This document shows positions 20,262 to 38,328 of a stretch of 64,000 nt of DNA, piece after piece. This DNA is from Nesterenkonia lacusekhoensis (GTDB lineage: Bacteria; Actinomycetota; Actinomycetes; Actinomycetales; Micrococcaceae), in assembly GCF_017876395.1 (NCBI RefSeq), contig NZ_JAGINX010000001.1, forward strand, positions 1,178,001-1,242,000, given 5' to 3'. Made by a program: the position numbers and the translations under genes. Numbering within the stretch: position 1 is the first letter of the stretch; each line of letters begins with the position of its first letter. The notes under the pieces are model-generated. The model was not told where the DNA came from. It saw only the letters and a list, made by a program, of their open reading frames with translations, and made no database searches.

Positions 20262-21359
20262 ATGTCACAGACCGTCAATGCTGTCGTGGTCAAGGAGAAG
20301 AACGCCCCGGCGGTCGTCGAGCAGATCGTGATCCCGGACCCGGGACCCGGCGAAGTCGTCGTCGACGTCCTGACCTGCGGCGTCTGCCAGACCGATCAGC
20401 ACTTCCAGCAGGGCGAGGTGGGAGACAACTTCCCCTACCTGCTGGGCCACGAGGCCACTGCTCGAGTCTCCGAGATCGGCGAGGGCGTGACCAACGTCAA
20501 AGTCGGCGACAAGGTCATCCTGAACTGGCGCGCCGTCTGCGGCGAATGCCGCGCCTGCGCCAAGGGTGACCTGAAGTACTGCTTCAACACCCACAACGCC
20601 GCACAGCCTATGACACTGACCGATGGGACCGAGCTGGAGGCCGCGCTGGGCATCGGCGCCTTCGCGGAGAAGACTCTGGTCCACTCCGGCCAGTGCACCG
20701 TCATCGATGACGTCGACGACTCAGCCAACGCCGCGGTGGGCCTGCTGGGCTGCGGAGTGATGGCCGGCATCGGCGCCGCGATCAACACCGGTGAGGTCAA
20801 GCGTGGAGAGTCGGTGGCCGTCATCGGCGCCGGCGGAGTGGGCACTGCCGCCATCGCCGGAGCCAAGCTCGCCGGAGCGACGACCATCATCGCAGTGGAC
20901 CTCGACCCGCGGAAGCTGGAGAAGGCCGAAGAGCTCGGTGCGACCCACACGGTCAACTCGAAGGAGACCGACGCAGTGGAAGCCATCCGAGAGCTGACCG
21001 GCGGGTTCGGCGCAGATCTCGTGATCGATGCCGTGGGCATCCCTGCCACCTATAAGCAGGCCTTCTACGCCCGCGACCTGGCTGGCCGTGTGGTGCTGGT
21101 CGGTGTGCCGGATGCCTCCCTGACCCTGGAGCTGCCGCTCCAGGACCTCTTCAGCCGCGGCGGATCGCTGAAGTCCTCCTGGTACGGCGACTGCCTGCCG
21201 TCCCGCGACTTCCCGATGCTGGTGGACCTGTACCAGCAGGGCCGTCTGGACCTGGATGCCTTCGTGACCGAACGGATCACCCTGGACAAGGTCCAGGAGG
21301 GCTTCGACACCATGAACCGCGGCGAGGTGCTGCGCTCCGTGGTCGAGATCCAGGCCTGA
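20262..21359 (+). CDS. mscR: S-(hydroxymethyl)mycothiol dehydrogenase
   Basis: A 365-residue zinc-dependent medium-chain dehydrogenase. It oxidises S-hydroxymethyl-mycothiol, formed from formaldehyde and mycothiol, to S-formylmycothiol with NAD. Visible are catalytic-zinc ligands in TCGVCQTDQ and GHEA, the structural-zinc cysteines in [15 protein letters not shown], and the NAD loop [12 protein letters not shown]. It is followed after 46 bases by an MBL-fold hydrolase, the usual pairing. Known homologues also act as S-nitrosomycothiol reductases. The downstream formate dehydrogenase could complete oxidation to CO2. Confidence 0.9.
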
Positions 21360-21405: not shown

Positions 21406-22041
21406 ATGAACGCACGTATCGAGCACCTGGAGACCTCCGGAACCTTCTCCCTGGACGGCGAGACCCACCAGGTGGACAACAACATCTGGATCGTGGGCGA
21501 CGATCAGGAGGTCATCGTGATCGATCCAGCCCACGACGCCGAGGCCGTGGAGAAGGCGGTGGACGGCCGTCGGGTGGCCGCAATCCTGCTCACCCACGCC
21601 CACGATGATCACATCGGCCAGGTCAAGGACGTCCAGGCCCGCATCGGCGGCGACATCCACCTGAACTGGGAGGACAAGGTCCTCTGGGAGCAGGTCTACC
21701 CCGACGGGGAGCCGGATGTGAAGATCTCCGACGGAGACACCTTCACCGTGGCAGGAACGACGCTGAAGGCGCTGCACACCCCCGGCCACTCCCCCGGCTC
21801 CACCTGCTACTACGCGGCAGACCTGGAGGGTGGTGTGGTCTTCGGCGGAGACACCCTCTTCAACGGGGGCCCCGGCGCGACCGGACGCTCCTACAGCAGC
21901 TTCGAGACCATCGTGGATTCGATCCGCACAGTGCTCTTCGCTCTGCCTGAGGACACCGCCGTGAAGACAGGCCACGGTCCTTCGACCACAGTCGGTGCGG
22001 AGAAGCCCACCGTGGATGAGGCTGTGAAGAACAACAGCTGA
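21406..22041 (+). CDS. MBL-fold metallo-hydrolase, probable mycothiol-pathway partner
   Basis: 211 residues. The metallo-beta-lactamase zinc motif THAHDDHIGQ is clear, with the downstream His in HTPGHSPGS, an Asp in FGGDTLF, and the C-terminal GHGPST. It follows the mycothiol dehydrogenase gene closely and ends at a strong bidirectional terminator. MBL proteins paired with this dehydrogenase are thought to hydrolyse S-formylmycothiol (or remove related mycothiol adducts); that role is inferred from the neighbour and not from a diagnostic residue. Confidence 0.87.
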   Translation: MNARIEHLETSGTFSLDGETHQVDNNIWIVGDDQEVIVIDPAHDAEAVEKAVDGRRVAAILLTHAHDDHIGQVKDVQARIGGDIHLNWEDKVLWEQVYPDGEPDVKISDGDTFTVAGTTLKALHTPGHSPGSTCYYAADLEGGVVFGGDTLFNGGPGATGRSYSSFETIVDSIRTVLFALPEDTAVKTGHGPSTTVGAEKPTVDEAVKNNS

Positions 22042-22159: not shown

Positions 22160-22918
22160 TCAGCCCAGCGGGCCCGGGGTGCCCGGTCTCAGCTCCCAAT
22201 GCCGGCGATAGGTGTCCACCACGGCCTGCTCCACCTCGGATATGGTCAGCCCGGGGAGCAGATCCGCGGCAGCCCCTGCGGTGAGAGGATCCCATTCCAG
22301 GCCCAAAGCGTCATAGGCCTCGGTGAGCACGCGGCGGATGGGTGCACCGTCCTCGACCACCACAGAGGTGGAGAACAGCCAGCCGGAGCCGACCTGACGC
22401 TGGGCGGTTCCCACAAGTTTGATGCGGACATCCGGCTCTCCGGGCATCACCGCATGGACGGAGTGCTCCCCGTAGCAGTACTCCGCAGGGATGGGCCCCA
22501 GCAGCGCATCCACCCCACAGCGCTGCAGCGCCTCGACGAAGAGCGCTCCGAACGCACGGAAACGGTCCTGCGACTCGCGGATCGGGTCTGGATCCGGCTC
22601 GATATGGTCGATGACCAGTGAACCGCCATGGTATGCGGCGGCACGTCCTCCGGCTCGGCGCACCAACGGAGCGAATCCGTTGTCGGCGCAGGCCTCGACC
22701 GCGGCGCGAAAGCCCGGCAGCTTCTGGTCCCGCTGGCCGAAGGCGACAGTGGGCAGAGGCTGATAGATGCGCAGCATGGGGCCTGTGGCCAGCGGGTCGT
22801 GCGGATCCTGGGCATATCGGCGAGTGCCGCGGAGCAGCTCGATGGCCAGATCGAGATCTCTGGAGGCCCCGAGACTCTCCGGCTGCCTATAGAGCAGCAG
22901 CGACCCGGCTTCACTCAT
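22160..22918 (-). CDS. Biotin/lipoate A/B protein ligase family protein
   Basis: A 252-residue protein. RRAGGRAAAYHGGSLVID matches the RR-x-(S/G)GG-xx-YH motif of lipoate-protein ligases, and VRIKLVGTAQR holds the lysine (KxxGxAQR) that binds the adenylate. Typical enzymes attach lipoate or octanoate to acyl-carrier domains. The start ATG at 22918 fits the family; an upstream extension in frame is not conserved-looking. It is divergent from fdhA, but any functional link to formate metabolism is speculative. Confidence 0.78.
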   Translation of the reverse strand: MSEAGSLLLYRQPESLGASRDLDLAIELLRGTRRYAQDPHDPLATGPMLRIYQPLPTVAFGQRDQKLPGFRAAVEACADNGFAPLVRRAGGRAAAYHGGSLVIDHIEPDPDPIRESQDRFRAFGALFVEALQRCGVDALLGPIPAEYCYGEHSVHAVMPGEPDVRIKLVGTAQRQVGSGWLFSTSVVVEDGAPIRRVLTEAYDALGLEWDPLTAGAAADLLPGLTISEVEQAVVDTYRRHWELRPGTPGPLG

Positions 22919-23069
22919 GAGAAATGAGTCTACGGTCCCTGCGCTCACCTGCTGAAATCTCGGCCGCCCTTCTGCGCCCGCCCGCCGGCACACCGCCCAC
23001 AGCGCACCGCCCACAGATCTGCCGGGCAGCACTGTCAGGTCCTCCCTGACGGCACTCACAGCTGTTAGC

Positions 23070-26000
23070 ATGAGCCCTATGGCACGGATCACGCCTCTCG
23101 AATGGCCCGTCCTCCGTCAGCTGCGCTCCCGGGATTCCACCGGCCGCGGCGCTGCTGTCACGTCGCAGAAGACGCGCCGGACCGCTCCGCGGACCGAAGA
23201 TGCCGACACCGTGGTGCAGAGCGTCTGCCCCTACTGCGCGGTGGGCTGCGGGCAGAAGGTCTATGCCAAGGACGACCGTGTCATCCACATCGAAGGCGAT
23301 CCAGACTCACCGATATCCCGGGGCAGGCTGTGCCCCAAGGGAGCGGCCAGCGAACAGCTGGTCAACTCCTCCGGCCGCCAGACGAAGGTCCTCTACCGTG
23401 CACCCCGAGCCCGGGAGTGGGAGGAGCTCGATCGGGACCGGGCGCTGAATATGATCGCCGACCGCTTCGTCGAGTCGCGCCGTCGTCATTGGGAGGATGA
23501 GGACGAGCATGGCAACCCAGTGAACCGGACCATGGGCATCGCCAGTCTGGGCGGAGCGACCATCGACAATGAAGAGAACTATCTGATCAAGAAGCTCTTC
23601 TCGGCTGCCGGCGCCGTCCAGATCGAGAACCAAGCCCGCATTTGACACTCTTCCACGGTTCCCGGTCTGGGAACCTCGTTCGGGCGCGGGGGCGCCACAC
23701 AACCCCAGCAGGATCTGGCCAACGCCGACTGCATCATCATCCAGGGATCCAACATGGCCGAGTGCCACCCCGTCGGATTCCAATGGGTGACAGAGGCTCA
23801 GCAGCGCGGAGCGCGCGTGATCCACATCGATCCCCGCTTCACCCGCACCAGCGCTGTGGCCGATAAGCATGTCGCTCTGCGTGCCGGCAGCGACATCGTC
23901 CTGCTCGGTGCGCTGATCAACTACGTGTTGAGCAACGACCTGCACTTCGACGAGTACGTCCGGCACTACACCAATGCCGCCACCATCGTCTCGGAGGACT
24001 ACCAGGACACCGAGGACCTGAACGGGCTCTTCTCCGGGTATGACCCACAGAAGGGCACCTACGATGCGACGTCCTGGTCCTATGCTTCCCGCGGAGATGA
24101 CGAGAAGGTCGAGGAGCCTGGGACAGAACCGGAGAGTGACGTCGCTGAGCCGCATGAATACGGCGCCGGCGGCCCGGCGCTGCGGCACGCGGACGTCGCG
24201 CGGGACGATTCCCTGCAGGACCCCCGCTCGGTCTTCCAGCTGCTGAAGCGTCACTACCGGCGATACACCCCCGAAATGGTCGAAGAGACCTGCGGCATCT
24301 CTGCTGAGGACTTCCATTACCTGGCGGAGTCGATCACGAAGAATTCGGGTCGCGAACGCACCACGGCGTTCTGCTATGCCGTCGGGTGGACCCAGCATGC
24401 CCAAGGCGCCCAGTTCATCCGAACGGCCGCAGTGTTGCAGCTGCTGCTGGGCAATATGGGACGTCCCGGCGGCGGAATCGTCGCCCTGCGCGGCCATGCG
24501 ACCATCCAGGGCTCCACCGACATTCCGACGTTGTTCAACCTGCTTCCTGGGTACCTCCCCATGCCGGAGGCAGGTCAGCACGACAGTCTGGAAGACTTCA
24601 CCGGAGCCATCGGCTCAAAGCTCCAGAAGGGCTTCTGGGCCAACGCGGATGCCTACACCGTGAGCCTGCTCAAAGCGTGGTTCGGCGACGCCGCCCATGA
24701 GGGAAATGACTACGCCTTCGAGTATCTGCCGCGTCTGACCGGCGCCCACGGCACCTATCAGACGGTGGAACGGATGCTCCGGGACGAGCTGGACGGATAC
24801 TTCCTCGTCGGGCAGAACCCGGCAGTGGGTTCAGCCAACGGGAAAATGCAGCGCATGGGCATGTCCCACCTGAAGTGGCTGGTGGTCCGTGACTTCAGCC
24901 TCATCGAGTCAGCGACATGGTGGAAGGACGGCCCGGAGATCGAGAGCGGCGAGCTGCGCACCGAAGACATCGACACCGAGGTGTTCTTCATGCCGGCGGC
25001 CAACCACACGGAGAAGGCCGGATCGTTCACGCAGACTCAGCGGCTTGTCCAGTGGCGGCACCAGGCTGTCACTCCGCCCGATGACGCTCAGAGCGAGCTG
25101 GAGTTCTTCCACGAGTTGGGCAGGCGCATCCGTGCCCGGGTCGCGGACTCCTCTGACCCGCGGGACCGTCCTCTGCTCGATCTCACCTGGGACTACCCCA
25201 CTGATGAGCATGGGGAGCCTGACCCCGAGTCTGTGCTCCGAGAGATCAACGGATACTACGTCAGCGGCCCGGACGCCGGCACGCCGCTGTCAGCCTTCAC
25301 CCAGATGCGGGCCGACGGCTCCACTGCCGGAGGGTGCTGGATCTACACAGGCATCTTCGCTGACGGGGTCAACCAGGCGGCACGGCGCAGACCGGGCCAT
25401 GAACAGGATGAGACCGCAGCCGAATGGGCATGGGCCTGGCCCGCCAACCGGCGCATCCTGTACAACCGTGCTTCGGCTGACCCGGAAGGCCGGCCGTGGA
25501 GCGAACGCAAGAAGCACGTCTGGTGGGATCAGGAGAACGGGCGGTGGACCGGCCGCGACGTCCCCGACTTCCCCGAGACGCTCGCTCCCGGGACGAAGTC
25601 ACATCCCGATGCCGGAGGACCTGATGCGTTGGCCGGCGATGATCCGTTCATCATGCAGGCCGACGGCAAAGGGTGGCTCTTCGTACCCAACGGGCTGGTG
25701 GACGGCCCGATGCCCACTCACTATGAGCCTCCGGAATCGCCCATCTCCAATCCGCTCTATGAGCAGCAGAGCAATCCAGCCAGGATCACCCTGCCCCGCC
25801 GTGACAATCTGCTCGCGCCCTCGGCCGCTCACCGCGGCTCCGAGGTCTACCCGCACGTGTTCACCACCTATCGCCTCACCGAGCACCACACGGCCGGAGG
25901 CATGAGCAGGTTCCTTCCCTACCTCTCAGAGCTGCAGCCGGAGATGTTCTGTGAAGTCTCGCCGGAGTTCGCAGAGCTGGTCGGCCTTGAGAACTACGGA

Positions 26001-26378
26001 TGGGCCACCATCATCTCTCCACGCTCGGCCATCGAAGCTCGCGTGCTGGTCACAGACCGTGTCCGTGCGCTGACGGCCGGGGGCAGACGCATCCACCAGG
26101 TGGGCCTTCCCTACCATTGGGGCACAGGGACGGATGCAGTGGTCGAAGGCGACGCCGCCAACGACCTGCTGGGCATCACGTTGGACCCCAACGTGCAGAT
26201 TCAGGGATCGAAGGCCGCCCAGTGCGACGTCATCCCTGGACGGCGACCGCGCGGCCAGGCGCTGCTGGATCTGGTGGAGAGCTACCGACAGCGAGCAGGG
26301 ATTACCGTGGAGACAGGCAACCAGAAACTCACCGCGCCCTACCCGCAGCCCGAGACTACGACCAGCGAGGAGGATTGA
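23070..26378 (+). CDS. fdhA: Formate dehydrogenase alpha subunit, selenoprotein (UGA-Sec at residue 192)
   Basis: The two open frames 23070-23645 and 23754-26378 are one gene read through an in-frame TGA at 23643-23645: RI-Sec-HSSTVPGLGTSFGRGGAT matches the conserved Sec site of FdnG/FdhA-type enzymes, and the same frame continues without interruption to 26378 (about 1102 residues). It oxidises formate to CO2 at a molybdo-bis-MGD (or tungsten) centre. The N-terminal [4Fe-4S] ligands are visible in CPYCAVGCGQ and RLCPKG, QGSNMAECHPVGFQW is a family motif, and the C-terminal ~150 residues are the dinucleotide-binding domain. There is an insert rich in Asp/Glu near residue 330-370. No hydrophobic Tat signal is seen at the N-terminus. 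Start 23070 or 23079. Confidence 0.95.
23646..23683 (+). promoter_or_regulatory. SECIS-like element directly after the fdhA UGA codon
   Basis: A perfect 7-bp stem, GGTTCCC (23657-23663) and GGGAACC (23669-23675), closes a five-base loop GGTCT at 23664-23668, starting 11 nt after the UGA. Bacterial SECIS hairpins bound by SelB sit in the coding sequence directly downstream of UGA with a short GG/U-containing apical loop, so place and loop fit. Confidence 0.85.
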
Positions 26379-27385
26379 TGCGCTCGCTCACCGAAGACCC
26401 CGCTCGCAGCGCTGAAGCCCACGGGGAACGTGCCCAGGAGCGGAAGTCATTCTTCACCGACACCTCTATCTGCATCGGCTGCAAGGCCTGCGAGGTGGCG
26501 TGCAAGGAATGGAACCGCAACCCGATGGACAGTGATCTGGGCCTGCTGGAGTCCTCCTACGACAACACGGGGTCACTCGGTGCCAATACGTGGCGCCACG
26601 TAGCGTTCGTGGAGCAGGACCAGGAACGCATCCAGGCTGCTCGGGAGTCCGGCAGAAAGCTCGTCAGCCTCGGCATGCCAGGGGTGGGGCCGCCGTCCTC
26701 GTCCGGAGCCCCCGGCCCATCCGGGGACAGAGACACCACTCCCCCGGACACTGCTGAGTTCCGCTGGCTCATGTCCTCAGACGTGTGCAAGCACTGCACC
26801 CATGCCGGCTGTCTGGACGTCTGTCCCACCGGAGCCCTGTACCGCACTGAGTTCGGAACGGTGAAGGTCCAGGAGGATATCTGCAACGGGTGCGGCACAT
26901 GTGTGGGCGGGTGCCCCTTCGGCGTGATCGAACGCAGGGACGAAGGCATCATCCGCGCCAAGACGGAGCGGAACCAATCGCGCTACGCCCAAGAGATCCC
27001 CAACGAGGGTACTGCCAATAAGTGCACGTTCTGCCATGACCGCCTGGTGGACGGGCAGACACCGGCCTGCGCCCAGACCTGTCCGACGACCTCGATCAAG
27101 TTCGGCGAGCACACCGATATGGTCCACCAGGCCCGTGAACGCGTGGCTCAGCTGCACAGCGAAGGCATGACCGAGGCTCGGCTCTATGGGGCCAACCCTC
27201 AGGACGGCGTCGGGGGCACAGGGTCGGTCTTCCTGCTGCTCGACGAGCCGGAGGTCTATGGCCTGCCACCCGATCCGCGCGTGCCCACCAAGGACCTGCC
27301 GCGGATGTATAAGCACACTGTGGTCGCCGCAGCCGGCATGCTCGCCGCGGTCGGTGCCTCCTTCGCCTGGGGAGGCCGTAGATGA
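26378..27385 (+). CDS. fdhB: Formate dehydrogenase iron-sulfur (beta) subunit
   Basis: 335 residues. Four cysteine clusters are visible: CIGCKACEVACKEWN, CKHCTHAGCLDVCP, CNGCGTCVGGCPFG and CTFCHDRLVDG with PACAQTCP, for four [4Fe-4S] centres that carry electrons from FdhA to the membrane subunit. The C-terminus has a hydrophobic stretch (VVAAAGMLAAVGASFAW) that may anchor it, as in FdnH. The start ATG overlaps the fdhA stop (TGATG), and the next gene overlaps its stop, so fdhABC is an operon. Confidence 0.92.
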   Translation: MRSLTEDPARSAEAHGERAQERKSFFTDTSICIGCKACEVACKEWNRNPMDSDLGLLESSYDNTGSLGANTWRHVAFVEQDQERIQAARESGRKLVSLGMPGVGPPSSSGAPGPSGDRDTTPPDTAEFRWLMSSDVCKHCTHAGCLDVCPTGALYRTEFGTVKVQEDICNGCGTCVGGCPFGVIERRDEGIIRAKTERNQSRYAQEIPNEGTANKCTFCHDRLVDGQTPACAQTCPTTSIKFGEHTDMVHQARERVAQLHSEGMTEARLYGANPQDGVGGTGSVFLLLDEPEVYGLPPDPRVPTKDLPRMYKHTVVAAAGMLAAVGASFAWGGRR

Positions 27386-28449
27386 CGACATCGCCTCATG
27401 ACAGCCACCGACCGCCGGAGACTCGCCGCAGCCGGAGGAAGGGGCAACGGGCTGAGGAGGGCGCTCGGGAAGTCCCGCTGGTGGAGAAGCCGCAGTTCTC
27501 CTCCTACTACGGTCGGCCAGTGGTGAAAGCACCGCCGTGGGGTGACGAGATCGCGGCCTACCTCTTCCTCGGCGGCCTGGCCGGAGGATCATCGCTGCTC
27601 GCCGTCGGCGCCCGGTGGACCGACCGGCCCCTGCTGCGCCGTAACGCCCGGCTGACCGCACTGGGGGCCGTCGGGCTGGGGACCGCTGCATTGATCCACG
27701 ACCTGGGCCGGCCGGAACGCTTCCTCTATATGCTTCGCACGTTCAAACCGACCTCCCCCATGAGCATGGGGACGTGGCTGCTGAGCTCCTTCAGCACTGC
27801 GGCCGCCGTGACGGCGGCCGTCGAAGTGGACCGGTTGTCGGTCTGCAGGCTTCCTCTCGGGCCGGCGCGGCGTGTGCTGCGTGTATGCGAGAGTCCGGCC
27901 GAGGTCGGCACCACGCTGCTGGCCGCTCCTCTGGCGAGCTACACCGGCGCACTCTTGGCCGACACCGCGGTGCCGACGTGGAACGCCGGTCGCGACGAAC
28001 TGCCGTTCCTCTTCGCCTCCTCAGCGGCACTCGCCGCGTCTGGAGCGGCCCTGGTCTCGACGCCGCCCGGGCAGACTCAGCCCGCCCGGGGGCTCTCCGC
28101 CGCGGCGGCCATCGGTGAGGTTGCCTCGATGAAGATTATGAAGAAGCGGATGCACCCGGCAGAGGCCGAGCCGTTGGAGAACGGCGCGCCCGGCACGATG
28201 CTCAGATGGGCCGAACGGCTGACTCTCGCCGGCACCGCCGGATCGGTCCTGCTGGGTGGGCGCCGTCCCACGGCAGTACTCAGCGGTCTGCTGCTGCTGG
28301 GCGGCTCTGCTCTGACCCGTGTGGGCATCCTGCGCGCGGGCATCAGCTCAGCAGAGGACCCGCGGCACACGATCGAGCCGCAGAAGGATCGGCTCGAGCG
28401 GCGGCGTGCACGAGGAGTGGTGGACGACTCGATCACCACAGCTGGCTGA
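27382..28449 (+). CDS. fdhC: NrfD/PsrC-type membrane subunit of formate dehydrogenase
   Basis: 355 residues with a polar N-terminus and eight or so hydrophobic segments. The region YYGRPVVKAPPWGDEIAAYL and LGGLAGGSSLLA is typical of NrfD-family quinone-reducing subunits linked to molybdoenzymes. It lacks heme-ligand patterns of FdnI and so passes electrons to menaquinone by the NrfD fold, which is known for the family. Overlaps fdhB by 4 bases. The convergent selD gene ends 17 bases beyond it. Confidence 0.85.
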   Translation: MTTSPHDSHRPPETRRSRRKGQRAEEGAREVPLVEKPQFSSYYGRPVVKAPPWGDEIAAYLFLGGLAGGSSLLAVGARWTDRPLLRRNARLTALGAVGLGTAALIHDLGRPERFLYMLRTFKPTSPMSMGTWLLSSFSTAAAVTAAVEVDRLSVCRLPLGPARRVLRVCESPAEVGTTLLAAPLASYTGALLADTAVPTWNAGRDELPFLFASSAALAASGAALVSTPPGQTQPARGLSAAAAIGEVASMKIMKKRMHPAEAEPLENGAPGTMLRWAERLTLAGTAGSVLLGGRRPTAVLSGLLLLGGSALTRVGILRAGISSAEDPRHTIEPQKDRLERRRARGVVDDSITTAG

Positions 28450-28466: not shown

Positions 28467-29489
28467 CTACCTGACCTCGATCAGGGTCTGAGACTCCTCC
28501 GGCAGCGCTGTGGTGTGTCCGATGACCGGATAGCCCGGGACCTCGCCCACCACCAACAGGCCGCCGGAGGTCTGTGCATCGGCCAAGACCAGCAGGTCTT
28601 CTTCGGTCACCTCTGCTCCGGTGGACAGATGGTCGCGCACCCATTCCAGATTGCGCCGCGTCCCGCCGGAGACGTAGCCGTCCCGCAGCGCCTCGGCGGC
28701 ACCCGAGACCAGCGGGACCGCTGCCGAATCGAGGCGGGCGCCCACTCCTGAGCCGCGGCACATCTTGTAGAGGTGGCCCAGCAGGCCGAAGCCGGTCACG
28801 TCGGTGGCAGCACGCGCCCCGACGGACTGAGCGGCTTCTGAGGCCTCCCGGTTCAGCGTGACCATCGTCTCAACCGCCTCCGCGAAGACCTCCCCTGTGG
28901 CCTTATGACGGTTGTTCAGCAGTCCCAGCCCCAATGGCTTGGTCAGCGTCAGCGGCAGACCGGGCTCTGCGGCGTCGTTGCGCAGCAGAGATGCGGAATC
29001 TGCCGTCCCGGTGACGGAGAGGCCATACTTCGGCTCCGGATCATCGACGGTATGACCACCGATCAGCGGGCAGCCGGCCTGCTCCGCGACAGCCAGGCCA
29101 CCGCGCAGGACCTCCGCCAGCAGCTCCATCGGCAGAGTTCCCCTCGGCCACCCGACCAGATTGATCGCCACCCTGGGGGAGCCTCCCATGGCATAGATGT
29201 CGGAGAGAGCATTGGCCGCGGCGATGCGGCCCCAGTCGTAGGCGTCGTCGACCACCGGTGTGAAGAAGTCAGCCGTGGAGAGGATGGCGGTCTGACCGTC
29301 GAGGCGCACTGCCGCGGCGTCGTCACCGTTGTTGAGCCCGACGATCACCTGGTCCGCCTCCGGCGTGCCGAGACCGCTGAGCACCTCCTCGAGCTCACCT
29401 GCGGGGATCTTGCAGGCACACCCGCCTCCGTGTGCGTAGGTCGTCAGGCGGACTGCTCCGGTTCCAGCTGAAGGTGCACGCTCAGTCAT
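28467..29489 (-). CDS. selD: Selenide, water dikinase
   Basis: A 340-residue SelD that makes selenophosphate from selenide and ATP, the selenium donor for SelA. The N-terminal catalytic motif HGGGCACKIP holds the Cys and Lys equivalent to E. coli Cys17 and Lys20; Cys and not Sec is encoded. GLNNGDDAAAV and LSTADFFTPVVDD are nucleotide- and Mg-binding motifs, and TDVTGFGLLGHL is a family signature. The ATG at 29489 begins where homology starts; an upstream in-frame ATG lies at 29525. Divergent from tRNA-Sec and selA. Confidence 0.94.
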   Translation of the reverse strand: MTERAPSAGTGAVRLTTYAHGGGCACKIPAGELEEVLSGLGTPEADQVIVGLNNGDDAAAVRLDGQTAILSTADFFTPVVDDAYDWGRIAAANALSDIYAMGGSPRVAINLVGWPRGTLPMELLAEVLRGGLAVAEQAGCPLIGGHTVDDPEPKYGLSVTGTADSASLLRNDAAEPGLPLTLTKPLGLGLLNNRHKATGEVFAEAVETMVTLNREASEAAQSVGARAATDVTGFGLLGHLYKMCRGSGVGARLDSAAVPLVSGAAEALRDGYVSGGTRRNLEWVRDHLSTGAEVTEEDLLVLADAQTSGGLLVVGEVPGYPVIGHTTALPEESQTLIEVR

Positions 29490-29611
29490 ACCGCGAGTAT
29501 AGGAGAGGCCTCCTCCGGCGGCCATACCCCGTCCAGAGGGCAGGAATCTCGCGCTGACCAGCATGAACTGCGGCACTCCGTCCCCGCCGCCGACGTGGTA
29601 ATTTGAGCCGT

Positions 29612-29706
29612 GGAGGTGTATGGGTCCTGGTGGGCTCCGCGGTCTTCAAAACCGTTGAGACCGAGTACCTCGGTCTGGCGGGTTCGATTCCCGTCCACCT
29701 CCGCCA
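29612..29706 (+). tRNA. selC: tRNA-Sec (UCA)
   Basis: 95 nt with the features of bacterial tRNA-Sec: a long acceptor arm GGAGGTGT/CCACCTCC (eighth pair is a T-C mismatch), a 6-bp D stem GGGTCC/GGGCTC, anticodon loop CTTCAAA with TCA at 29646-29648, an 8-bp extra arm AGACCGAG/CTCGGTCT, T-loop GTTCGAT, discriminator G and encoded CCA at 29704-29706. It is 32 bases upstream of selA. Confidence 0.96.
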
Positions 29707-29738
29707 AACCTGTTCCCACCCCGACGAGGAGGCTGGAC

Positions 29739-31097
29739 GTGGTTGAGGAGGATCCCCGGCGTCGAATCCCGGGAACGGACACGGTGCTGGCGCATCCGCA
29801 GGTGCGCGAAGCCGCACACAGACTCAGCCGTCCCGTTCTCCAGCGGATCGTCCACCAAGCACAGAGCCGTGCTCGCAGCGGGAGCATCTCCCCAGAACAG
29901 GTCCTGCCCGAGGTGCTCGCCCAGCTGGAGGGCCTTCGCCCGTCTTCCCTCCGTCCGGTCATCAACGCCACCGGCGTGGTGGTCCACACCAATCTCGGGC
30001 GGGCGCCGCTCTCCCCAGCGGCTCGCCAAGCCATCGTCGAGGCCGCCGGATACGTCGACGTCGAGATGGACCTGCACACAGGCCGTCGGTCCCAGCGAGG
30101 AGCAGCCGCCCACCATGCGCTGCTGGAGGCCTGCGGCCCAGCGGAGGACGCCCTCATCGTCAACAACGGAGCCGCGGCGCTCGCCTTGGCCGCCGCCGCT
30201 CTGGTCGGGGCAGGAAGCGTGATCATCAGCCGTGGTGAGCTGGTCGAGATCGGCGCGGGGTTCCGTCTGCCCGAGCTCATCAAATCGACAGGAGCAGAGT
30301 TGGTGGAGGTCGGCACCACCAACCGGACTCACCTCCAGGACTACGCCTCGGCGGTGGAGGCACTGCCTCAGGGTGAGCGCGCCTGCATCCTGAAGGTCCA
30401 CCCCAGCAACTACCGGATCGCCGGCTTCACCTCCGCGGTGCCCACCGCCGAGCTGGCCGAGCTCGCGCAGCGTCACGGACTGCCGCTGGTGGTCGACGCC
30501 GGCAGCGGTGTCCTCGAACCCGAACCCGTTCTGCCGGAGGAACCAGACCTCAGCGGTGTCCTCTCAGACGGAGCTGACCTGGCCATCGCCAGCGGTGACA
30601 AGCTCCTCGGAGGCCCGCAGGCCGGGCTGCTCCTGGGCTCCACCGAGACCATCGCTCAGCTGAAGCGCCATCCCCTCGCCCGGGCGATGCGCACCGACAA
30701 GCTGACCCTGGCCGCACTGGAGGCCACGCTCACCGCAGGTCCCGCCCCGGTGACCACATCGCTGCATGCGGATCCGGAGGATCTGCTGACCAGGGCACGG
30801 CGCATCGCTGAGGCCGTAGGTGCTGACGTCGTGGCCCATGACGGGCGGGTCGGCGGCGGCGGTGGCGCTGAGGTCCCGCTTCCCGGCTGGGCGGTCCAGC
30901 TGCCGGAGTCGGCCGCTGAGCCTCTGCGCTCCCACCTTCCTCCTGTGGTGACCCGGACCAGCGATTCCTGGTGCCTGCTCGATCTGCGGTGCGTCCCCGA
31001 GTCCGAGGATGAGACCGTGCTCGAGGCGGTGCGCTCAGTCCTTCAGGACCTGCAGGCCACGCCGTCTGGAAGCACACCCCTCGGAGAGGACGTGTGA
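29739..31097 (+). CDS. selA: L-seryl-tRNA(Sec) selenium transferase
   Basis: A 452-residue PLP enzyme converting Ser-tRNA(Sec) to Sec-tRNA(Sec) with selenophosphate. VINATGVVVHTNLGRAPLS is the family N-terminal motif, GNxxR-like and NNGAAALALAAAAL follow, and the PLP lysine is in IASGDKLLGGPQAGLLLG. The frame stays open upstream through the tRNA, but a GTG at 29739 with AGGAGG at 29726-29731 fixes the true start. It is followed by selB after one base. Confidence 0.94.
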   Translation: MVEEDPRRRIPGTDTVLAHPQVREAAHRLSRPVLQRIVHQAQSRARSGSISPEQVLPEVLAQLEGLRPSSLRPVINATGVVVHTNLGRAPLSPAARQAIVEAAGYVDVEMDLHTGRRSQRGAAAHHALLEACGPAEDALIVNNGAAALALAAAALVGAGSVIISRGELVEIGAGFRLPELIKSTGAELVEVGTTNRTHLQDYASAVEALPQGERACILKVHPSNYRIAGFTSAVPTAELAELAQRHGLPLVVDAGSGVLEPEPVLPEEPDLSGVLSDGADLAIASGDKLLGGPQAGLLLGSTETIAQLKRHPLARAMRTDKLTLAALEATLTAGPAPVTTSLHADPEDLLTRARRIAEAVGADVVAHDGRVGGGGGAEVPLPGWAVQLPESAAEPLRSHLPPVVTRTSDSWCLLDLRCVPESEDETVLEAVRSVLQDLQATPSGSTPLGEDV

Positions 31098-31098
31098 C

Positions 31099-32886
31099 AT
31101 GTATGTGGTCGCCACAGCCGGACACGTCGATCATGGAAAATCCACGCTGGTGCGCGCGTTCACCGGCACCGAGCCGGACCGCTGGGATGAGGAGCACCGC
31201 CGCGGCCTGACCATCGATCTGGGCTTCGCCGCGACCACGCTGCCCTCTGGCCGGGGCGTCTCCTTCGTCGATGTTCCAGGCCACGAACGTTTCCTGGGCA
31301 ATATGCTCTCCGGACTGGGGCCCGCACCGGTGGTCTGCTTCGTGGTCGCCGCCGACCAGGGGTGGCAGGCCCAGTCCAGTGATCACCGCGATGCAGTGGC
31401 CGCCCTCGGCGTCGATACAGGGATGATCGTCATCACTCGCACTGACCTGGCCCCTGACCGTGTCACTGACGTACTGGCCGAGGCTCGTGAGGAGCTGGCC
31501 GGCACCGCCCTGCAGAACGCGCCGGCCGTCGCCGTCTCTGCCGCCACGGGCGAGGGGCTGGACCCGCTGCGGTCGACTCTGGATGAGGTCCTCTCGGCGG
31601 CGGAGACTCCCGCGGTGGACGGACCGATCCGGCTCTGGGTCGATCGGGCCTTCAGCCTGCGCGGGGCCGGGACGGTGGTCACCGGAACCCTCGCAGCAGG
31701 TCGCCTGGAGCGTGAGCAGCGCCTTCATCTGCTCGGCGCGGACGTGGACGCGCCAGTGACGGTGCGTGGCCTGCAGTCTCATGGCCAGGACGCAGCCGCA
31801 GTCCGAGCGGCCAACCGCGTGGCCATCAACCTGCGGGGCATCTCTGCCGAGCAGCTCAGCCGAGGCGATGTCCTTCTGACTCCTGATGCCTGGCACCTCA
31901 CTGATGCTCTCGATGTCCGGCATGCCTCGGGCCAAGACTTCTCGCAGACTCCGCAGAGTGTCACCGTCCACATCGGGACAGCGGCCGTGGCTGCCCGGTG
32001 CCGCCCCTTCGACGACGACCACGCCCGCCTCACCCTCAGCCGTCCGCTGCCGCTGCGGGTGGGCGACCGACTGCTGGTCAGAAGCTCCGGGCGCCGGACC
32101 GTCCTGGCCGGAGCTCAGGTCCTGGATGCCGATGTTCCGCCGCTCACCCGCCGCGGTGACGGAGCCCGACGCCGGCAGACCTTGGCCCAGATGAGCAGCT
32201 CCGGCGAGCTCTCCGATGAGGTCAGACGTCGCCGCGCCGTCACTGAGGAGCACCTGGTGAGGATGGGGATCCCCGTACCTGAGGCGCTGCCGAGCGCGGT
32301 GCGGCGATGGGGCGGCTGGCTGGTGGATGCCGATCAGGCCTCCGCCTGGATGCGACGGCTGCGCACGGCGACCGAAGCCCACCTGCACGAGCATCCGCTC
32401 TCAGCGGGGCTGTCCCAGGGCGCGGCCGCCGACGCGCTGAAGCTGCCCGATCCGGCTCTCTTGGGCCCGGTCATCCACGAAGCCGGACTGCACCAGAGTG
32501 CCGGCCGCATCAGAACCGGTGACGGCCCCCGGGACCTGGGGGCGGCGGAAGCCTCACTATCCGTGCTGGAGCAGGAACTGAAGGAACGACCGTTCTCGGC
32601 TCCTGAGGCGGACCGGCTGCGAGAACTGGGACTTCACGATCGCGAACTGGCCGCAGCCGAACGTCAGGGGCGCCTGCTGCGGCTGCCCGGGGGCGTGGTC
32701 CTGCTCCCGAGCTCGCCCGCACGTGCTATGCGAGAGCTGACCTCGCTGGAGCAGCCGTTCACCGTGAGTGCGGCACGTCAGGCCCTGGGTACCTCACGCC
32801 GCGTTGCCGTGCCGCTGCTGGAGCACCTCGATGCCCGCGGTTGGACCCGGCGAGTGGACAGCGCACTCCGCGAGGTCGTCGTCTAG
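31099..32886 (+). CDS. selB: Selenocysteine-specific translation elongation factor SelB
   Basis: 595 residues. It carries Sec-tRNA to UGA codons marked by a SECIS hairpin. The N-terminal GTPase has AGHVDHGKSTLV (G1), RRGLTIDLGFA (G2), DVPGHERFLGNML (G3) and ITRTDL at the G4 position (Thr in place of the usual Asn-Lys). EF-Tu-like domains 2 and 3 follow, and the last ~200 residues are winged-helix repeats that bind SECIS RNA. The ATG at 31099 is one base after the selA stop. Confidence 0.94.
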   Translation: MYVVATAGHVDHGKSTLVRAFTGTEPDRWDEEHRRGLTIDLGFAATTLPSGRGVSFVDVPGHERFLGNMLSGLGPAPVVCFVVAADQGWQAQSSDHRDAVAALGVDTGMIVITRTDLAPDRVTDVLAEAREELAGTALQNAPAVAVSAATGEGLDPLRSTLDEVLSAAETPAVDGPIRLWVDRAFSLRGAGTVVTGTLAAGRLEREQRLHLLGADVDAPVTVRGLQSHGQDAAAVRAANRVAINLRGISAEQLSRGDVLLTPDAWHLTDALDVRHASGQDFSQTPQSVTVHIGTAAVAARCRPFDDDHARLTLSRPLPLRVGDRLLVRSSGRRTVLAGAQVLDADVPPLTRRGDGARRRQTLAQMSSSGELSDEVRRRRAVTEEHLVRMGIPVPEALPSAVRRWGGWLVDADQASAWMRRLRTATEAHLHEHPLSAGLSQGAAADALKLPDPALLGPVIHEAGLHQSAGRIRTGDGPRDLGAAEASLSVLEQELKERPFSAPEADRLRELGLHDRELAAAERQGRLLRLPGGVVLLPSSPARAMRELTSLEQPFTVSAARQALGTSRRVAVPLLEHLDARGWTRRVDSALREVVV

Positions 32887-32891
32887 GTCTC

Positions 32892-33728
32892 TCACAGCCC
32901 TTCGGAGGGCTCATGGGCAGTGTCGGCCGGCAGATCCTCCTGTGTGGTCCTGAACGCGAGATAGACCGGCAGCCCGAGGAGGAGGAAGCCGCCGATCAGG
33001 TTGCCGATCAGCACAGGCACTTGGTTCCACAGCAGCCAGTCGTCGACGCCGACATCGGCTCCGACCATCATCCCGGCGGGGATCACGAACAGATTGACCA
33101 CTGCGTGTTCCAGTCCCAGATAGAAGAAGGCGGCGATCGGCAGCCAGAGCGCCGCGAGCTTGCCCGTGGTGCTGGTGCTGGTCATACCCATGACCACGCC
33201 GAGCACCACCAGCCAGTTACACAGGATGCCGCTGAGCAGGGCCAGGCCGATCCCCGCGGGCAGGCCCAGATCACGGTAGGCGAGCGTCTTGTCCTCGGCG
33301 GTGTCGATCAGCCCGTCGATCAGCAGACCTGACCCGCCCGTCCAGAATTCGGTGAGCCACGCGGCGAAGAGCAGCGCACAGAGCAGGCCGCCGATCACGT
33401 GCCCGGTCAGAACCACGCCGAAGCTGCGGAAGAGCGAGGACAGGCGGGCCCGGCCATCGAGCACCGCCAGCGGCACCAGGGCGAAGTTGCCGGTGAGCAG
33501 CTCTAGGCCGAGCACGACGACGACAGCCAGCCCCAACGGGAAGACCAGTGCTCCCACCAGGCTGTTCCCTGTCTCTTCCGCGGCGAGGATCGCCATGACT
33601 GTGGCGGCCGAGAGCACGAACACGGCGATCATGGATCGCAGGATCTGCTGCCAGCTGCTCAGTTCGGACTTCGAGGTGCCCTGCTCCAGCATGTCCTCGG
33701 TGACTTCAGGTGGTGCGACGTATGACAT
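32892..33728 (-). CDS. focA: Formate/nitrite transporter family protein (FNT; FocA/NirC)
   Basis: 278 residues with six membrane segments. LELLTGNFALVPLAVLDGR, NWLVVLGVVM, and LEHAVVNLFVIPAGMM match the FNT pore elements; the His of LEHAVVN is the central pore histidine of FocA/NirC. ATG at 33728 follows an SD-like GGGGAG. It is convergent with selB and adjacent to the formate dehydrogenase/selenocysteine block, so formate is the likely substrate, although nitrite or hydrosulfide cannot be ruled out from sequence. Confidence 0.88.
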   Translation of the reverse strand: MSYVAPPEVTEDMLEQGTSKSELSSWQQILRSMIAVFVLSAATVMAILAAEETGNSLVGALVFPLGLAVVVVLGLELLTGNFALVPLAVLDGRARLSSLFRSFGVVLTGHVIGGLLCALLFAAWLTEFWTGGSGLLIDGLIDTAEDKTLAYRDLGLPAGIGLALLSGILCNWLVVLGVVMGMTSTSTTGKLAALWLPIAAFFYLGLEHAVVNLFVIPAGMMVGADVGVDDWLLWNQVPVLIGNLIGGFLLLGLPVYLAFRTTQEDLPADTAHEPSEGL

Positions 33729-34700
33729 CGGTGCCTTGTCTCCCCTGGATGATGCGGTGCGATCCGGTGCCAGTCTAAAGGCGGACGCGCAGGTCTTTAC
33801 AGCCCTTTGCGCCACCGATGAGAACAGCCCTGGCCCCGCAGAAATCTGCGGATCTGGCCCCTGTAGGTACTTCTCAGACCGTAGGAGGCCCGCTGGAGCG
33901 CTGGTTCGGCGTGCTTCTCAAGGGTGAGGCTCGCGACCCGCGGGCCACGGTCCGAGGACCCGAACTCCTTGCCTGCGCTGGGGACCGGCCGTACCGTGTG
34001 GGAGCCTGATCGATGAGCTGATAGCTGCAAGGAGCATCATGCCGGGTTTCGAACTTGCTGGTCTCGATCTGGCGGTGATAGCTGCCTACGCCCTCGGTAT
34101 CGTGGCGATCGGTTTCTGGGTAGGACGTGGGACCAAGAGCTCCGACGACTTCTTCCTGGCTGGGCGCGGCATGATCTGGCCGCTGGTCGGGTTCTCGCTG
34201 GTCGTCACCAACTTCTCCGGCACCCAGTTCCTCGGGTCGTGATCCTCGGCGGCCTCAAAGCTGTGATGATCACAGACACCATTCAAGGCGTGCTGCTGCT
34301 CCTGGCCGCAGGCACGATCTTCGTGGTGCTCTTCGCCGAGTTCGGCTTCGACTGGGGCGTCTTCCGCGACCTGGCCTGAAGCGCCCTGGGTTTCGTTCCG
34401 TGGTTAGACGGTCGCGGGCGCGGTCGTCGTGGTGTGAGTGTAGGCCGCTTCGACTGCCGCTGGAGTGCGGTAGTCGAGCGCCTCGTGGAGCCGGGTCGTG
34501 TTCCACCAGTGGACCCAGCCCATCGTCGCCAACTCGACTTCGCTGACCGAATCCCAGATCCGCTTCGAGTAGATCAGTTCCGTCTTGTAGAGACCGTTCA
34601 CGGTCTCGGCCAGGGCGTTATCGTAGCTATCGCCAACGGTGCCGACTGATGCTTTCACCCCCGCTGCGATGAGAGCGTCCGAATAGGCCAGTGAGACATA

Positions 34701-35766: not shown

Positions 35767-36051
35767 ATGACAAGCAAGAGAAGACGCCATACCCCGGAAC
35801 AGATCATCCGGAAGCTCCAAGACGCTGAGAAGCTCCAGGCAGAAGGCCACGACGTCGCCGCCACCGCCCGCGAACTGGGAGTCACCGAGGCCACCTACTA
35901 CCGGTGGAAGAACCAATACGGCGGGCTCAAAGCCGAAGACGCCAAACGGCTGAAGGAACTTCAGAAGCAAAACGACCGGCTCAAGAAGCTCCTGGCCGAG
36001 GCGGAGCTGGAGAAGGCCGCGCTGAAGGAGCTGGCGGAGGGAAACTTCTAA
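35767..36051 (+). CDS. IS3-family OrfA (element B)
   Basis: 94 residues: [18 protein letters not shown] and [20 protein letters not shown] form the HTH DNA-binding part, followed by a leucine-zipper-like [21 protein letters not shown] coiled coil. The ATG at 35767 is used rather than 35716. Its last codons hold the frameshift site. Confidence 0.9.
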
Positions 36052-36878
36052 GCCCGGACCGGCGCCGAGCAGCTGCGCGACACCTGATGGCCACCATGGG
36101 CATCAGTGAACGCAGAGCCACCGCGCTGGCCGGGCTTGCCCGATCCGCCTTCCGCCGGGCACTGAAGTCTGAGAACGCTGGTGATCCTGATGCTGGGCTG
36201 CGGGCCTGGCTACGGGCTTATGCAAAGGACCACCCGCGCTGGGGCTACCGGCGGGCCTATCATGATGCCCGAGCCGAGGGCTGGGCGGTCAACCATAAGA
36301 AGGTCCAGCGGCTCTGGCGTGAAGAGGGCCTGCGGGTTCCGGTGAGACGTCGACGCAAACGCGTGGGGTCCTCCACCGCGGAAGCCCCGCAGGCGGACGC
36401 GCCGAATGTGGTGTGGGCGGTGGACTTCCAATTCGACGCCGATGAGACGGGCCGGGCGATCAAGATCGCCTCGATCGTCGATGAGCACACTCGCGAATGC
36501 CTGGGCGGGATCGTGGCCCGCAGCATCACCGGTGATGACCTCACCGCCCACCTCGACGCTATCGCCGCTGACCGGGGGCTTCCAGAGGTCCTACGGTGTG
36601 ACAACGGCCCGGAGCTGATCTGCCACGCGATGGCCGACTGGGCCGGGGAGGTCACGGGGATCCACTACATCCCGCCGGGTGCGCCGTGGCGCAATGGGTA
36701 CGTGGAGTCCTTCAACAGCAGGATCCGGGATGAGTGCCTGAACATCACCAGCTTCTGGTCTTTGACCCATGCTCGGGTGATCATCACGGATTGGAAGAAG
36801 GAATACAACACCATCCGGCGCCACTCAGCGCTCGGGTACCGCAGCCCGGCTGAGTATGCTGAAATCTGTACCCATTGA
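35767..36878 (+). CDS. IS3-family transposase OrfAB (element B, made by -1 frameshift)
   Basis: The -1 frame continues from the 3' end of orfA through [20 protein letters not shown] to 36878. The DDE catalytic residues are visible: [16 protein letters not shown] (second Asp) and [13 protein letters not shown] (Glu), followed by the usual C-terminal [13 protein letters not shown]. Fused length is about 370 residues, normal for an IS3-group transposase. All three catalytic residues, both ends and the duplication are present, so the copy may be active. Confidence 0.85.
36039..36045 (+). promoter_or_regulatory. Programmed -1 frameshift heptamer GGGAAAC
   Basis: In the orfA frame the heptamer reads G GGA AAC, the canonical X XXY YYZ form, two codons before the orfA stop at 36049-36051. 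Slipping back one base enters the orfB frame. Confidence 0.75.
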
Positions 36879-38016
36879 AGAAACCGCGGCCCGCATAACG
36901 CGTGGACCTACTTCCGGGGGCAACCCACACCCGCTACGCGATACTGGTCCACCTGCCCCGCCAGGCCGGGTACGGGCAAATTCGACCAACGAAGAACGGC
37001 CCGGCACTGGCGGGGTATGGGGCGTTGACCATGAAAGACGCTCTGGCGAAGTCGATCACCCATCTGCCTGAGCAGCTGCGCCGTTCTTTGACCTGGGACC
37101 GCGGCAAAGAGCTCTCGGCACATGCGCTGCTGACGAAAGAGACTGGGCTGCCGGTGTACTTCGCTGACGCGAAGAGTCCCTGGCAGCGTGGCTCCAACGA
37201 GCACCTCATGGTCTGCTTCGGCAATACTTCCCGAAAGGCACTGACCTCTCCAGGTGGAACGCCACCGAAATCGCAGCTATCGCCACCGCCATGAACAACC
37301 GGCCACGCGGGATCTTGGGGTGGCGCACTCCCGCCGAGGCGTTCGCCGATCAACTACGCTCAGTCCAACAACACACTGTTGCGACGACCAGTTGAATACG
37401 GCCTGACTGCCCCTGTCGGAGTGGTGAACCAATCCGCTATCATTCCTGCTTGCACCAGTGGAAAGAAGTGCGTGCTCCAGTGCGAGCAAAGGTAGAGACT
37501 GTGTGTGGAGTGTGGGTGCGACCGCCCAGCCGACAATTCTCCGACTGAAGACATCGGTGATGAATGCGACGTAGCAGAATCCGGCGAGGATCCGGACGTA
37601 GGTGATGTCAGCGACCCAGAGCTGCCGCGGACGGTCCGCGGCAAACTTCCGTTCCACAAGGTCGGGGCGCTCATCCGGTCCGGCTCCAGGGCAGGTGGTG
37701 ACGGGCTTACGGCCTCGCCGGACGCCTTGGAGTCCCGCGACCCTCATCAGTCGTGCCACCTGGTCGCGACCGACGTCCCATCCCGCATGCCGCATCGCGT
37801 GCCACATCTTTCGGACCCCGTAGACGCTGTAGTTCTCCTTGTGAATTCGTTTCACCTCCTCCACGAGCATCTCGTCCCGAATGCTACGAGCGCAGGCTGG
37901 CCTGCTCTTTGCGGCACGGTATCCGCGGGAGGTGATGAACCCACATTCTGTCGCACCGAGGATGCGGCAGATGGCCTCGACCCCGAACTGTTCGCGATGC
38001 ATGTCGATGAACGCGA

Positions 38017-38328
38017 TCATTTCGTCGTGGGGCGGTCGAGCTCCGCTGCGAAAAACGCTGAGGCGGCCTTCAGAATCTCATTCGCGCGCCGTGCCTCGGC
38101 GAGTTCCCGTCGAAGACGCCGGTTCTCCTCCTCGAGCGGCTCGCCCGGGCCGGTCGGCTCGGTGGGGCCGTAGCGGTTGCACCAGATCCGCAGGGTCTCC
38201 TCCCCGACACCGAGCTGTGGTGCGACGGCACGGATCGACTGCGCTCTGGGACCTCCCTCGAGGGCTTGACGGTCGTGAACCATGCGCACGGCGCGGTCAC
38301 GCAGCTCTGGACTGAACTTCTTGGGCAT
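38017..38328 (-). CDS. IS3-family OrfA (element A)
   Basis: 103 residues starting MPKKFSPELRDRAVRMV with an HTH in RAVAPQLGVGEETLRIWCN and a coiled coil (EENRRLRRELAEARRANEIL). Its stop overlaps the orfB start (ATGA). It is intact, but its partner orfB is split. Confidence 0.88.
   Translation of the reverse strand: MPKKFSPELRDRAVRMVHDRQALEGGPRAQSIRAVAPQLGVGEETLRIWCNRYGPTEPTGPGEPLEEENRRLRRELAEARRANEILKAASAFFAAELDRPTTK

Follow-up and report, generated by a model that had tools for sequence, protein, structure and literature searches.

The formate dehydrogenase locus

The window, the stretch of 64,000 nucleotides of Nesterenkonia lacusekhoensis DNA analysed here, contains a gene for the alpha subunit of a formate dehydrogenase of the selenocysteine (Sec) type, fdhA (23079..26378, forward strand), followed by genes for partner subunits and for the insertion of selenocysteine. 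FdhA scores 1900.5 bits against the NCBIfam family NF041513 (formate_DH_Act; cut-off 1400) over the whole protein, with profile positions 4-1067 of 1067 covered and no difference found from this actinobacterial formate dehydrogenase. It also passes the cut-off of TIGR01553, formate dehydrogenase-N subunit alpha (912.9 against 814.2 bits), and carries, above the Pfam cut-offs, Molybdopterin (PF00384), Molybdop_Fe4S4 (PF04879) and Molydop_binding (PF01568), i.e. the molybdopterin, Fe4S4 and dinucleotide-binding domains that identify it as a Mo/W-bis-MGD oxidoreductase. FdhD is found at another place in the same genome. FdhA is a member of a described, curated and widespread actinobacterial family, and as such the finding is real but ordinary.

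The ATG of fdhB, which encodes the iron-sulphur subunit (26378..27385, forward strand), overlaps the fdhA stop in the sequence TGATG, which suggests translational coupling. FdhB has Fer4_11 above its cut-off and reaches 164 bits against TIGR01582, below the cut-off of 334.7. The next gene (27382..28449, forward strand) encodes an NrfD-type membrane subunit (PF03916, 76.1 bits against 25.8); NrfD is its only Pfam match at E <= 0.001, and it does not qualify as a gamma subunit of the cytochrome b type.

The original prediction stated that the Sec machinery adjoins these genes, and all four components were indeed located beside them, so that SelA, SelB, SelC and SelD, as required for a selenoprotein formate dehydrogenase, are all encoded in the genome. 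Selenophosphate synthase is encoded by selD (28467..29576, reverse strand; TIGR00476, 387.1 bits against 125), whose bounds are those of the open reading frame, with the match beginning at residue 43 and the true start probably lying inside. The tRNA-Sec gene selC, with anticodon TCA (29612..29706, forward strand), was found by ARAGORN and scores 80.2 bits against 47 for Rfam RF01852. It is followed on the forward strand by selA (29709..31097, the bounds of the stretch searched; TIGR00474, 404.8 bits against 267.9) and by selB (31099..32886; TIGR00475, 281.2 bits against 242.25), encoding the Sec-specific elongation factor with a C-terminal winged-helix domain (PF09107, SelB-wing_3); the start of selB was judged from the match, the open reading frame opening at 31009.

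Further genes in the vicinity point to formaldehyde and formate. An S-(hydroxymethyl)mycothiol dehydrogenase of the route from formaldehyde to formate (20262..21359, forward strand; TIGR03451, 619.1 bits against 512.9) is adjoined by a hydrolase of the metallo-beta-lactamase fold (21406..22041, forward strand; PF00753, 84.3 bits against 22.7), and a formate/nitrite transporter (FNT) family protein is encoded at 32892..33815 on the reverse strand (PF01226, 198.1 bits against 34.6). A link from formaldehyde through formate to CO2 is plausible as a local trait of the window and is not conserved across the family, because among the 56 of 80 named loci that span 22 kb or more (the long loci) relatives of the hydrolase and the FNT gene occur in one, that of Nesterenkonia cremea, and relatives of the mycothiol enzyme in 12 (tblastn, E <= 1e-15). 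No paper was found that links a selenocysteine formate dehydrogenase in Mycobacterium with mycothiol. The divergent lipoate-ligase-like gene directly upstream of fdhA (22160-23092, reverse strand; PF21948, 35.8 bits against 27) likewise has a relative in only one of the 56 long loci, again that of N. cremea. Further along the window, 35904-38328 holds reading frames which we take to be transposase-like; an ALIL pseudoknot (Rfam RF01497; 37957-38059, reverse strand) overlaps two of them, an arrangement that presumably resembles the -1 frameshifting of IS3-type elements.

An internal UGA and the hairpin behind it

Translation of the frame 23070-26378 on the forward strand gives 1103 positions with a single internal stop, the TGA at 23643-23645 (residue 192 when numbered from 23070, 189 from 23079), ahead of the terminal TGA at 26376-26378; with the internal UGA read as selenocysteine the protein would comprise 1102 residues from 23070. 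The frame is therefore unbroken save for this one codon, as originally predicted, and the expectation that a gene caller would split it also proved correct, since a mechanical caller of open reading frames returned 23070-23645 and 23754-26378. Scored separately against NF041513, the two halves reach 323.7 and 1548.9 bits in the right order, the first falling below the cut-off for the whole protein. This is a genuine annotation trap, in which a simple caller misses the active site of a real enzyme along with its N-terminal part.

The internal UGA lies in the context NQARI-U-HSSTVPG. In the alignment of the translation with E. coli FdnG for which the original prediction had called, residue 192 is paired by HMMER with the selenocysteine ("X") of 1kqf_A. 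Two further alignments, making three in all, put it opposite the C or X of chains carrying the name selenocysteine-containing formate dehydrogenase. The in-frame TGA of fdnG in strain MG1655 is codon 196. The internal UGA of fdhA accordingly occupies the catalytic Sec/Cys column that characterises selenoprotein formate dehydrogenases, in agreement with the claim made for it. The gene of N. cremea matches residues 1-1102 with 97% identity in its best segment. The prediction had also named two findings that would speak against it, a position of the TGA away from the Sec column and a further inactivating mutation; the former is contradicted by the alignment, and no second disabling change was seen in the translation or in the comparison with the N. 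cremea gene. Judged from its sequence, fdhA looks like the intact gene of a formate-oxidising enzyme, and its internal UGA is very probably decoded as selenocysteine.

The frame originally proposed is real, and its start is probably the ATG at 23079 (residue 4) rather than 23070, because in-frame stops lie shortly upstream in three relatives: two other Nesterenkonia loci have one four codons ahead of the ATG matching 23079, and a third locus has a TGA two codons ahead of it. The ATG matching 23070 is absent from these three loci and present in N. cremea. A -10-like element of the form TANNNT, TAGCAT at 23066..23071 on the forward strand, lies 13 nt before ATG 23079, and ATG 23070 would sit partly within it. 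Among 107 distinct upstream stretches of relatives, TANNNT occurs at -12 or -13 in 64 (46 and 18, respectively) and at each other offset in at most eight. The starts used for this count were assigned automatically, by taking the first start codon met upstream of a WP..RQ motif; 13 of them are TTG and may be wrong. The conserved element before ATG 23079 suggests that the fdhA mRNA is possibly leaderless. Nothing on actinobacteria, judged by title, was found in the literature joining selenocysteine, formate dehydrogenase and leaderless.

Downstream of the UGA lies a hairpin of the SECIS type, GGUUCCC-GGUCU-GGGAACC (23657..23675, forward strand), with a stem of seven base pairs and a loop bearing GU at the same offset from the UGA as in fdhF and fdnG of MG1655. 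Across 87 distinct stretches of 63 nt, one of the seven pairs forms in 80 sequences and each of the others in 86 or more, and pairing is kept through changes on both sides of the stem (UA to CG in eight, GC to AU in four). In a set of 29 sequences, E. coli fdnG among them, pairing holds in 98.5% of cells and falls to 70-71% when the partner is slid by one column, and both-sided changes occur at three pairs against a mean of 0.4 after shuffling, some of these changes resting on the single E. coli row. The hairpin region also has the strongest third-codon-position conservation of fdhA. Among 433 fourfold-type columns in 108 distinct sequences, the third base is invariant at Pro198 alone, in the 5' arm, and residues 202, 196 and 197 rank 3, 6 and 7, whereas just past the hairpin residues 203 and 205 fall to ranks 299 and 378. 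The lowest three of 1041 six-codon windows begin at residues 197, 196 and 195, the fourth-lowest lying elsewhere, at residue 860.

As the thermodynamic support from single sequences is weak, the argument for the hairpin rests on these conservation tests. Folding of three stretches gave z-scores of -0.25, -1.15 and 0.66 against shuffles, i.e. no extra stability; in a scan of 161 nt the Rfam model SECIS_3 scores 30.7 bits (E 1.8e-5) where its gathering score is 63, and a default Rfam scan of the window did not report SECIS. Both strands of the window together contain 1946 TGA trinucleotides, of which five, the fdhA site included, have all seven pairs in this register, and one besides fdhA also has GU at the loop positions. 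Despite the weak z-scores and the sub-gathering SECIS_3 score, conservation and covariation across the aligned sequences identify the element as a hairpin of the bacterial SECIS type directly 3' of the UGA.

The codon and its machinery in relatives

The codon at residue 192 is TGA in all 110 close formate dehydrogenase genes read, which comprise the window, 29 loci of genomes in the same order and 80 named loci. These are close relatives, because both sets were taken from the best-scoring matches (the best 30 of 127 matching genomes, own genome included, and the best 80 of 556). Seven further places among the matches of the 127-genome set gave five TGA and two cysteine codons, in genomes G052 (TGC) and G177 (TGT). 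Both cysteine genes are devoid of a hairpin of the window type and of the loop GU. With fuller filters the best tRNA-Sec scores in G052 and G177 are 41.5 and 44.2 bits, below the gathering score of 47, and their best SelB scores, 197.1 and 193.6 bits, stay below the cut-off of 242.25, at a level that another site in the window's genome reaches as well. Replacement of selenocysteine by cysteine in formate dehydrogenases has already been documented (PMC1794560). The two orthologues, from genomes without tRNA-Sec, SelB by cut-off or the hairpin, serve as a neat natural control for the decoding of Sec in bacteria.

Six genes reported with two TGAs (G056, G294 and G177 and, in split rows, G355, G219 and G208) were checked for a second Sec codon. 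Residue 192 is encoded by TGA in all of them but G177, where it is cysteine. Those of the other TGAs that were placed are not second Sec codons. The extra TGA of G056 lies close to the end, at query residue 1090; both of those in G177, at codons 1070 and 1071 of 1073, are the gene end; that of G355 is codon 2, before the start; and that of G294, codon 917, lies near the end of the first piece, with the match continuing in the second. No second stop was found within the aligned parts of G219 and G208.

The machinery accompanies the enzyme closely. FdhA, FdhB, NrfD and SelD are present in all 56 long loci, SelA and SelB in 54 and tRNA-Sec in 54; in the full set of 80 named loci, which includes many short ones, 71 have tRNA-Sec. 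In a sample of 396 genomes of the order, the formate dehydrogenase occurs in 127, tRNA-Sec (E <= 1e-8) in 147 and both in 125, the Sec codon having been read for part of these 125. Among the carriers, tRNA-Sec is lacking only in the two cysteine cases, G052 and G177. Fisher's test gives p = 7e-77 for the co-occurrence, with relatedness ignored. Another 22 of the 396 genomes have a tRNA-Sec match without a formate dehydrogenase of the FdhA family at E <= 1e-50; some of them may hold other selenoproteins, and several of the matches, at about 51 bits and just over the Rfam cut-off, may be ordinary tRNAs.

A model of the UGA plus hairpin (48 positions), run over the whole genome with E up to 1 and scoring 150 of 1914 first-look candidates, returned the fdhA site only. 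The genome search with NF041513 listed a second, weak place with one TGA. That TGA is the stop of a directly upstream gene, presumably transporter-like, which happens to be in frame with what we take to be a nitrate-reductase-like gene, and the latter has cysteine at the corresponding motif; the place was rejected as a second Sec gene of the FdhA family.

Decoding of the UGA and comparison with known systems

FdhA is almost certainly an actinobacterial-type formate dehydrogenase with selenocysteine and molybdenum or tungsten, in which SelB and the hairpin at 23657-23675 decode the UGA at 23643-23645. In such a mechanism, SelB carrying Sec-tRNA-Sec would bind the hairpin and selenocysteine would be inserted at the UGA, yielding one protein of about 1099 residues, while the terminal UGA fits a plain stop, as the UGA-hairpin model does not match there. 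The selenocysteine would coordinate the active-site metal, and electrons from formate would pass through the iron-sulphur subunit FdhB to the NrfD-type membrane subunit and presumably on to menaquinone. The codon, the hairpin and the machinery are shown by comparison of sequences; the readthrough itself, the binding of the metal and the path of the electrons are extrapolated from homologues and established knowledge.

Taken at face value, the broken output of the mechanical ORF caller would suit a nonsense mutation or a sequencing error, the gene being a pseudogene or an ordinary cysteine enzyme. This is extremely improbable, as all 110 close genes read, from independently sequenced genomes, have TGA at this codon, a conserved and covarying hairpin lies 3' of it, the complete Sec machinery is adjacent and fdhA shows no further disruption. 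It is also very improbable that the UGA is read otherwise than as selenocysteine, e.g. as tryptophan or by readthrough independent of a SECIS element. Such a reading can draw on the fact that selenocysteine is deduced here from sequence and on the weak z-scores of the single-sequence folds, but the column holds selenocysteine in E. coli FdnG, and the two orthologues with cysteine there come from genomes without tRNA-Sec, the hairpin being absent too. The originally proposed readthrough as selenocysteine is supported by all these lines together: the Sec column, the constant TGA, the covarying hairpin, the adjoining machinery and the cysteine in both carriers that lack tRNA-Sec.

The place of this selenocysteine enzyme in the cell can be sketched more tentatively. 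In ten FdhA N-termini read by eye for a twin-arginine translocation (Tat) signal, RR pairs occur in some, with no hydrophobic stretch behind them, which makes it plausible that FdhA faces the cytoplasm. Possibly, though short of probably, the enzyme is a leaderless-translated actinobacterial Sec formate dehydrogenase with an NrfD anchor and no Tat signal, which from the cytoplasmic side oxidises formate from the mycothiol-dependent breakdown of formaldehyde, an inside-out counterpart of FDH-N in a formaldehyde-to-CO2 island of this Nesterenkonia.

FdnGHI of E. coli has a Tat signal and a cytochrome b. Its alpha subunit (1kqf) is homologous to FdhA over most of the length, with selenocysteine in the same column. 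By contrast, the membrane subunit of the window matches only NrfD in Pfam, the beta subunit stays below the cut-off of TIGR01582 and no twin-arginine signal is visible by eye at the N-terminus of FdhA. A search of the literature for Nesterenkonia and selenocysteine gave nothing related, judged by title, and this Nesterenkonia locus seems to be undescribed in the papers searched, while its kind is already known. As described for Corynebacterium aurimucosum (PMC2830990), a UGA-containing fdnG clusters with fdxH, selD, selA, selB and selC; by that description the arrangement is the same and the host genus differs. For Actinomycetospora chiangmaiensis DSM 45062, another report (PMC7176365) describes a formate dehydrogenase, FDH1, with selenocysteine in the metal-binding domain and a selenium-dependent removal of formate, and SECIS elements were sought in its FdhA genes by bSECISearch. 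The table given there has SelD without a cluster label and lists the alpha, beta and gamma subunits, SelA and SelB under one cluster, to which the locus of the window can be likened by description.
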